DNA of 64,000 nt from Desulfobacteraceae bacterium (GTDB taxonomy: Bacteria > Desulfobacterota > DSM-4660 > Desulfatiglandales > Desulfatiglandaceae). Below are positions 1,110 through 64,000 of this stretch, in pieces (position 1 is the first letter of the stretch; every line of letters begins with the position of its first letter). The position numbers and the translations under genes were made by a program. Location: positions 62,001 to 126,000 of the forward strand of contig JAUWMR010000004.1 in assembly GCA_030613055.1 (NCBI GenBank), given 5' to 3'. The notes under the pieces are model-generated. The model was not told the origin of the DNA. It saw nothing but the letters and a program-made list of their open reading frames with translations, and ran no database searches.

Positions 1110-1372
1110 CCCTAACGTTGCAAAAGTCGAGGGTGCTGAAGATCCGCGGCGTCGAGGGTGAAGCCGTAGTATTTTACTGCGAACCCTTGACAACAAAGGA
1201 GATTCGGCGCCCTCGGCTTTCCCGAAGGGTAAACAACATGGTGATTTGACAGGCCTTGCTCGAATGCACATGCAGTGAATTCCTGCAAGCGGGGTGACAA
1301 CGGGACGAAACACTGTAGTTTAGGGGTTTTTAATAATGCTAACCATGTTGTTTATGCAACAGTAGGGGTAAC
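1106..1372 (+). repeat. MITE-like element with terminal inverted repeats and a folded 120-nt left half (copy 1)
   Basis: About 267 bp bounded by imperfect inverted ends: GTAACCCTAACGTTGCA at 1106-1122 and TGCAACAGTAGGGGTAAC at 1355-1372. A second inverted pair lies inside (AAACAACATGGT near 1232; ACCATGTTGTTT near 1341). Positions 1108-1227 match 63881-64000 at 111 of 120 bases with no gap. They fold into an outer stem of about 16 bp (1125-1140 with 1203-1218) enclosing a 9-bp arm (1151-1159 with 1183-1191) topped by a 6-bp hairpin. No convincing ORF is present. It fills the whole gap between pilC and the activator gene and includes the pilC stop. It could be a non-autonomous transposon, a structured RNA, or both. 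Confidence 0.75.
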
Positions 1373-5418: not shown

Positions 5419-5708
5419 TGCTTTGCCCCTGGAAGGGGTTAAAGCGCTATAAAGAAAAAAGTGCCTAAAATGCCTAAAGTTTAAAGTGCCTAAAGTTGTG
5501 GTACGCCTTCGGCGTGCTATTTAAAAAACAACGCCTCAGGGGTTTGCCCCCTTTTGTCGGCTAATTGGTATAATAGAGTAATTTTTTTTAAAAAATAGCA
5601 GAATTCATTAACTTTAGTCCCGCCGTGGCGGGATTTGGCACTTTAGATCACTTTAGGCACTTGTGTCCCGCTATGCGGGGAAGGACATGGTTTGAAAAAC
5701 GAAATAAA
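5419..5708 (+). repeat. P1 repeat, copy B
   Basis: A full P1 element: left arm with AAGTGCCTAAA and GCCTAAAG motifs near 5459-5495, central TACGCCTTCGGCGTG hairpin, GCAGAATTCATTAAC, a right arm of TTTAGGCAC motifs to about 5660, then GGACATGG and GAAATAAAG. The right arm carries an extra palindrome TCCCGCCGTGGCGGGA (5618-5633), where copy E reads GGCATTTTAGGCA. A second palindrome, TCCCGCTATGCGGGGA, is at 5666-5681. Confidence 0.88.
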
Positions 5709-5834: not shown

Positions 5835-5870
5835 AAACCCTATAGTTGCATAAATAACATGGCAAATTGG
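5835..5870 (+). repeat. Solo terminal-repeat-like sequence (AAACCCTA..GTTGCATAAA)
   Basis: AAACCCTATAGTTGCATAAA followed by TAACATGGCAAA matches 60821-60853 closely and resembles the inverted right end of the element at 1106-1372 and the sequence at 17640-17672 read on minus. It lies in the predicted 5' leader of the rnf operon. Confidence 0.6.
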
Positions 5871-46413: not shown

Positions 46414-46498
46414 GCGAGAGTGGCGGAACTGGAAGACGCGCTGGACTTAGGATCCAGTGGAGCAATCCGTAGGGGTTCGAGTCCCCTCTCTCGCACCA
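46414..46498 (+). tRNA. tRNA-Leu (anticodon TAG)
   Basis: A complete cloverleaf of 85 nt with acceptor GCGAGAG / CTCTCGC, D arm, anticodon arm CTGGA-CTTAGGA-TCCAG, a long class II variable arm, T arm GGGGTTCGAGTCCCC and encoded ACCA. Confidence 0.96.
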
Positions 46499-52445: not shown

Positions 52446-52520
52446 GGGCGGATAGCTCAGTGGGAGAGCGTCGGCCTTACAAGCCGAGGGTCGCAGGTTC
52501 AAATCCTGTTCCGCCCACCA
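52446..52520 (+). tRNA. tRNA-Val (anticodon TAC)
   Basis: 75 nt, acceptor GGGCGGA / TCCGCCC, anticodon arm TCGGC-CTTACAA-GCCGA, T arm GCAGGTTCAAATCCTGT, and encoded ACCA. First of the tRNA run behind lon. Confidence 0.96.
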
Positions 52521-52928: not shown

Positions 52929-53007
52929 GGGGACGTAGTTCAGTTTTGGTTAGAACGCCGGCCTGTCACGCCGGAGGTCGCGAGTTCGAGTCTCGTCGTC
53001 CCCGCCA
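52929..53007 (+). tRNA. tRNA-Asp (anticodon GTC)
   Basis: 79 nt, acceptor GGGGACG / CGTCCCC, D arm with a slightly long loop, anticodon arm CCGGC-CTGTCAC-GCCGG, T arm GCGAGTTCGAGTCTCGT, discriminator G and encoded CCA. It is the only complete member of the array and has its own terminator. Confidence 0.95.
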
Positions 53008-60820: not shown

Positions 60821-60853
60821 AAACCCTATCGTTACATAAATAAAATGGCAAAG
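60821..60853 (+). repeat. Solo terminal-repeat-like sequence, second copy
   Basis: AAACCCTATCGTTACATAAA followed by TAAAATGGCAAA, differing in only a few bases from 5835-5867. It lies in the 303-bp AT-rich gap 60657-60959 between the M23 and uvrC genes, which contains no gene. Confidence 0.6.
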
Positions 60854-63880: not shown

Positions 63881-64000
63881 AACCCTAACGTTGCAAAAGT
63901 CGAGGGTGCTGCAGATCAGCGGCGTCAAGGGTGAAGCCATAGTACTCTATTGCGAACCCTTGACAACAAAGGAGATGCGGTGCCCTCGGCTTTCCCGAAG
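63881..64000 (+). repeat. Folded element, copy 2 (cut by the window end)
   Basis: 111 of 120 bases match 1108-1227 with no gap. Outer stem 63898-63913 with 63976-63991; inner stem 63924-63932 with 63956-63964. The left terminal repeat AAACCCTAACGTTGCA is present; the right half lies beyond the window. The 63744-63880 stretch before it shows no gene. Confidence 0.8.

Follow-up and report, generated by a model that had tools for sequence, protein, structure and literature searches.

The fold of a core of about 100 nt, carried inside a small transposable element, has been maintained in many bacterial lineages through compensating mutations, and two copies of this element lie at the ends of the window, the 64,000-nucleotide stretch of DNA analysed here. 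The reading that we favour, at a probability of roughly 0.5, is that the element is a ~257-bp MITE moved in trans by IS1380 transposases, whose core, selected on one strand, acts most likely as an RNA on behalf of the element. As far as could be found, this large family was previously undescribed.

The element and its copies

The two 120-nt stretches singled out by the earlier note (1108-1227 and 63881-64000) do align without gaps and with nine differing sites, and the case is stronger than first stated, both being the left parts of 258-bp elements with inverted repeats and perfect 4-bp target duplications (Table 1). The right half of copy 2, which was to be sought in the flanking sequence, completes the element 140 bp past the end of the window, at G000:C12:126140, with 93% identity over 260 bp. 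The idea of a mobile element with terminal inverted repeats was thus borne out by the repeats and duplications themselves. Copy 1 lies directly behind a type II secretion F (T2SSF) gene, the stop codon of which falls inside its left target duplication, and is followed by a sigma-54 activator gene. Three tRNA genes are recognised by Rfam elsewhere in the window, at 46414-46495, 52446-52517 and 52929-53004.

Table 1. Parts of the two MITE copies and related ends in the window (TSD, target duplication)
Feature	Position	Strand	Basis or remark
Left TSD of copy 1, GTAA	1106..1109	.	identical to 1368-1371
Copy 1, entire 258-bp MITE	1110..1367	+	sequence, inverted repeats, TSD
Left inverted-repeat tip CCCTAACGTTGCA	1110..1122	+	same as IS1380-type IS ends of relatives
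Folded core: P1 18 bp, tandem GA, P1b 3 bp, internal loop, P2 9 bp, apex	1123..1220	+	covariation, 112 sequences
Apical motif GAAGCYGTAGTAnnnTACYGCGA	1160..1182	+	conservation line
Mini-hairpin CCCGAAGGG; loop inverted to TTC in some copies	1221..1229	+	
Inner left arm	1230..1243	+	complementary to 1341-1354; register exactly continuous with tip
Inner right arm	1341..1354	+	pairs with inner left arm
Right inverted-repeat tip TGCAACAGTAGGG	1355..1367	+	
Right TSD of copy 1, GTAA	1368..1371	.	
Solitary right-type end CCCTATAGTTGCATAAATAACATGG, remnant of MITE family	5838..5870	+	
Possible additional solitary end	60824..60839	+	1 mismatch to pattern
Left TSD of copy 2, TAAA	63879..63882	.	TAAA also after right end beyond window (L003)
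Copy 2, left part of 258-bp MITE	63883..64000	+	140 bp more beyond window
Folded core, copy 2	63896..63993	+	

BLAST with the element gave 48 matches in the host genome (4.26 Mb in 97 contigs), which also has 42 left-type and 55 right-type end patterns; a reversed-pattern control gave no match. With its 258 bp, terminal inverted repeats, dispersed copies and lack of a transposase gene, the element has the features of a MITE. Perfect 4-bp target duplications flank all eight intact-core copies that have both ends in this genome (among them L002, L004, L007 and L010, whose sequences show them to be intact), but 3 of the 10 in which the core is damaged or replaced (p=0.004); the integrity of duplication and core may both merely track age. 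Since short core-less copies with perfect target duplications exist (81 bp, 121 bp), the core is not strictly needed for movement. One locus, L048 1501-1621 (G000:C49:20066-20186), is a 121-bp near-perfect palindrome consisting of two left ends only, with the target duplication TTTA. A small palindrome, TCCCGCCnnGGCGGGA (also AGATCCCGTCTCAGCGGGGAGATCT), substitutes parts of the core in L031, L037, L039, L042, L046, L048 and L059 of G000, and the same palindromes occur elsewhere in the window, at 5618, 10489, 10683 and 36729.

The core keeps its place, behind base 13 of the left repeat, across end families, which comprise CCCTAACGTTGCA, CCCTGTTGTTGCA, CCTGAATTTTGCA, CCTAAAATCTGCA, CCTAATTGAGCG, CCCAAATTATGCA, CCTGGATTATTCA and others, and it is retained under at least seven different end sequences; other end families have 5-bp target duplications. 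Element length is mostly 253-260 bp, some Aminicenantes copies being shorter. The four-way junction is flush in 50 of 56 full elements, having all four closing pairs and no unpaired bases, and the register of the inner arms is correct only at shift 0 (53 of the 56, against at most 1).

Fold, covariation and strand preference

Folded without guidance, the RNA of copy 1 adopts the full architecture at minimum energy (z = -7.9; as DNA, z = -5.2). In order, this consists of an outer tip stem, the 18-bp P1, a tandem G.A, the 3-bp P1b, an internal loop, the 9-bp P2 and a GAA/GA loop, and then of the apex (GC-Y.Y-GUAG), the mini-hairpin (CCC-NNN-GGG) and an inner stem in which the inner arms pair with each other.

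Among 25 aligned cores, 18 of the 36 pairs have changed on both sides, with 60 cells against 15 +/- 4 after shuffling, and none of 500 shuffles scored as high on any of five measures. The counts avoid structure-fitted alignments, and the reference structure comes from one member. A wider set comprised 112 cores from Desulfobacterota, Aminicenantes and Acidobacteriota (mean identity 70%, minimum 42%). Under a tree-preserving null, in our own implementation and not the published R-scape, four pairs reached E < 0.05, all of them compatible with the fold, the number being held down by the strong relatedness among the sequences. The 15 top-scoring column pairs in this set all belong to the fold, counting P1b and the Y.Y mismatch, which stood outside the structure put to test and yet came out among the top pairs. 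Indeed, the P1b pair 25-80 appears as CG in 62 cores, GC in 23, AT in 12 and TA in 8, and the Y.Y pair 46-59 as CT in 59, TC in 36, TT in 13 and CC in none. The unpaired parts of the core, namely the internal loops, the tandem G.A (present in 90 and 88 of the 112 cores) and the apex, are conserved too. The earlier note had made its proposal depend on significant covariation in a wider alignment, and this is present in both the 25- and the 112-core sets, on one structure, as in a structured RNA family.

When the nine differences between the window copies are placed on the structure that the wide alignment supports, two sets of partners are fully compensated and no main-stem pair is broken. The double change at positions 32 (A>C) and 97 (T>G), which turns A-T into C-G, had been noticed before, as had the replacement of G.T by A-T at position 47. 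Position 59 had been thought to break a pair; its G>A change meets a C>T change at position 70, its partner, converting G-C into A-T. Hence, of the two changes to wobble proposed at positions 70 and 101, that at 101 (G-C>G.T) stands, and position 70 stays Watson-Crick. Similarly, of the two sites assigned to the apical loop, 65 is unpaired and 67 is paired (G.T>G-C), and site 38, formerly placed in a junction, makes a C-G into an A.G within a weak 3-bp helix.

A marked asymmetry separates the two strands. Within core pairs, G.T outnumbers A.C by 417 to 84, about 5:1 (28 vs 8 when counted by pairs), which implies that one strand is selected to fold. RNA folding is better on the G.T-rich strand in 109 of the 112 cores, and covariance-model scores on the reverse strand are ~30-40 bits, against ~130 bits. 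Beyond the core, G.T exceeds A.C by little (17:8 for the inner arms, 25:13 for the tips). The arms therefore resemble plain inverted repeats, and selection as a single strand falls on the core. Covariation and strand asymmetry together uphold the initial view that the element is selected as RNA or as a single-strand DNA hairpin, and they suggest that the folded strand, in one form or the other, does a job for the transposon.

Link to IS1380 transposases and distribution

The ends of the MITE match those of insertion sequences (IS) with IS1380 transposases (L291, L293, L297, L298), the proteins of which match NF033539 at E=8e-60 to 8e-98. In relatives, ends of the type CCCTAACGTTGCATAAA flank or adjoin IS1380-family transposase genes, a full-length 458-aa copy being present in G083 (L291) and partial ones in G019, G020 and G074. 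In a second IS1380 subgroup (L297, L298) the ends are CCTAAAAnnTGCA, and another set of MITEs, with 5-bp duplications, matches them; two IS1380 subgroups thus correspond to two MITE end families, one with CCCTAACGTTGCA and a 4-bp duplication, the other with CCTAAA..TGCA and a 5-bp duplication. From these sequence matches, the ~257-bp non-autonomous family would appear to move with IS1380-type transposases.

No core was found within IS1380 ends, and the sole core near 30 transposase loci belongs to a MITE beside an IS. The possibility that the core is the leader of an autonomous IS was discarded, since the ends are plain both in the full-length IS of G083 and at the other IS1380 transposase loci. 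The earlier note had named a match to an ordinary IS as an outcome that would speak against it. Such a match exists for the 13-18-bp ends, which are those of IS1380; it does not extend to the folded core, which those IS lack and which they therefore do not explain. A Pfam search of the host genome for a transposase gave no match, the reason being that the IS is a collapsed repeat of which three contig ends keep no more than the last 30 codons. These three contig ends of G000 lie 136 bp inside an IS1380-type element (C31:29409-29544, C45:59098-59233 and C46:47481-47616), the body of which the assembly lacks, as a collapse of this kind would lead one to expect.

The model finds matches in 30 of the 85 genomes from the class and in 32 of the 395 from the phylum, a patchy distribution with up to 53 matches per genome, the number in Desulfogranum marinum DSM 2058, and 40-50 copies in some organisms. 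Clear members that share this architecture, at 70-88 bits, occur in Aminicenantes and on one Acidobacteriota contig. BLAST against phages and plasmids gave no match, the exact pattern was absent from viral sequences, and a looser viral pattern gave 26 matches, one of which passed the model. A viral contig (L426:1591-1715, IMGVR_UViG_3300006467_000135) carries P1, the AAGGC/AACGCAG loops and the apex at 41 bits; this fold lies between minus-strand genes, is followed by TTTTTCTTTA and is without IS1380-type ends. Rumen Clostridia MAGs (L178, L211, L222, L262, L268, L272, L285 and others) contain multicopy long hairpins, sometimes in tandem, with the apex GAAGCTGTAGTAAnCTACTGCGA, situated near gene 3' ends and in most cases antisense to the next gene downstream (16 vs 4). 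These hairpins were not accepted as members, since they have the apex alone in common and score ~40 bits or less, and their homology is uncertain. Cyanobacterial pattern hits (L172, L220) were likewise set aside, as they have no model match and look like chance in TPR-type coding sequence. An Rfam scan of the element returned nothing at the gathering threshold, and relaxed scans nothing above E=0.1, in keeping with the earlier remark that the element belongs to no named family; nothing like the folded core was found in the open-access papers searched.

Readings of the core and known systems

In the favoured reading, IS1380-family transposases would move the ~257-bp MITE in trans, and the ~100-nt core that splits its left inverted repeat behind base 13 would not be IS-derived. 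Read-through transcription from outside would most likely make the core RNA, an internal promoter being unlikely with only 13 bp of the element upstream of the core. A conserved cellular factor, rather than the fast-changing transposase, might recognise the irregular hairpin and its non-canonical loops, and this recognition may help the element to move or persist. A partner other than the transposase is indicated because the conserved part is not read by the transposase and has survived changes of transposase type; the core is better conserved, across several phyla and end families, than the ends that the transposase reads. The preference for RNA is based on the tolerance of G.U, the tandem G.A, the mismatch that occurs as C.U or U.U but not as C.C, and loops that are conserved, among them an apical loop of UAAY type. 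Against it count the lack of room for a promoter ahead of the core and the random orientation of the copies, by which many must be untranscribed in the folding direction.

The main rival is a DNA hairpin, which we hold to be rather unlikely, although sequence alone would hardly separate the two. The core and the CCC-NNN-GGG hairpin would be looped out of a single strand at the replication fork, or as a cruciform, bringing the tip (13 bp) and the inner arm together and rebuilding the uninterrupted repeat that the transposase needs, which would tie movement to replication. This would account for the constant point at which the left repeat is split in all families, for the fact that removal of the core restores the exact sequence of the right end and of the IS (GTTGCA joined to TAAAC), for the flush closing pairs and the single correct register of the inner arms, and for the short versions in which another hairpin replaces the core; moreover, it requires neither promoter nor orientation. 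However, the conserved loops and apex are left unexplained, since a plain palindrome would suffice, no leading/lagging bias of the copies was seen (in a comparison for which the GC skew is too weak to be a good one), and IS1380-type transposition is cut-and-paste from double-stranded DNA.

The remaining explanations are far less probable. That the core has no function, its arms correcting each other by template switching during replication, is already disfavoured and has a small chance at best: loop inversions (CCCGAAGGG to CCCTTCGGG) and small palindromes swapped into the hairpin show that events of this kind do take place here, but such a process would also erase G.T pairs and strand preference, whereas the excess of G.T and the same wobble positions persist, and so do the conserved unpaired elements. 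A shade less probable is a host cis-regulatory RNA (terminator, attenuator or stabiliser) like NEMIS or ERIC. All 106 copies examined are indeed intergenic, and one phage contig as well as rumen Clostridia have similar hairpins beside T-runs; yet orientation to both neighbours is random (39 vs 49, 36 vs 30), which together with the intergenic position makes host gene control unlikely, no T-run follows the core in the MITE, and copy 1 has no terminator-like site. Least probable is a separate mobile hairpin repeatedly inserted into IS1380-type ends, as core-less versions (L075) and core-like folds outside MITEs could suggest, because the core always takes the same position and left end without border duplication, and total length stays at ~256 bp while the preceding bases differ (TGCA, GAGCG, TTCA). 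One old insertion of the core would fit better than repeated ones.

A broader proposal, tentative and below even odds, is that the core is a transposon-encoded structured RNA of a new class (or an aptamer of single-stranded DNA), needed by a DDE-type MITE for its own mobilisation via a conserved host factor, kept through exchange of transposase partners and also found outside transposons (the phage contig and the rumen Clostridia hairpins). The structure is now testable, with three helices, a tandem G.A, a C.U mismatch, a fixed apex and a four-way junction.

MITEs are usually regarded as mere substrates of a transposase, with an interior that can drift freely, and a conserved inner core points to a second partner in DNA transposition or element survival. 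HEARO/omega RNA and the ends of IS200/IS605, to which the element had initially been likened, share with it a structured nucleic acid linked to a transposon. Nevertheless, IS200/IS605 ends have no inverted repeats and make no target duplication, whereas the MITE has terminal inverted repeats, 4-5-bp duplications and DDE-type ends, and the likeness to HEARO/omega RNA found no Rfam match; neither comparison holds. The IS1380-family IS (NF033539), of which ISEcp1 is the best-known relative, resemble the MITE in terminal sequences (CCCTAACGTTGCATAAA; CCTAAAAnnTGCA) and short duplication, but the MITE has no transposase gene and its left repeat is split by the core. MITEAba12 (PMC6382973) is similar in its near-constant length and in terminal repeats matching a resident IS, and differs in its 113 bp, 9-bp duplication and conservation mainly in the terminal repeats. 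QMITE1 and QMITE2 of Coxiella (PMC5896051) are, in the text searched, MITEs able to give small RNAs, confined to one species and presented there without compensatory evidence. Among bacterial MITEs with RNA-level folds, Correia/NEMIS, ERIC, RUP and CIR (reviewed in PMC2229807) are also small, multicopy and intergenic, with inverted repeats and a strong predicted fold. These fold mainly end-to-end or in two arms, whereas the present MITE has an internal three-helix core with non-canonical pairs, which shows covariation over many genera under end sequences that vary.
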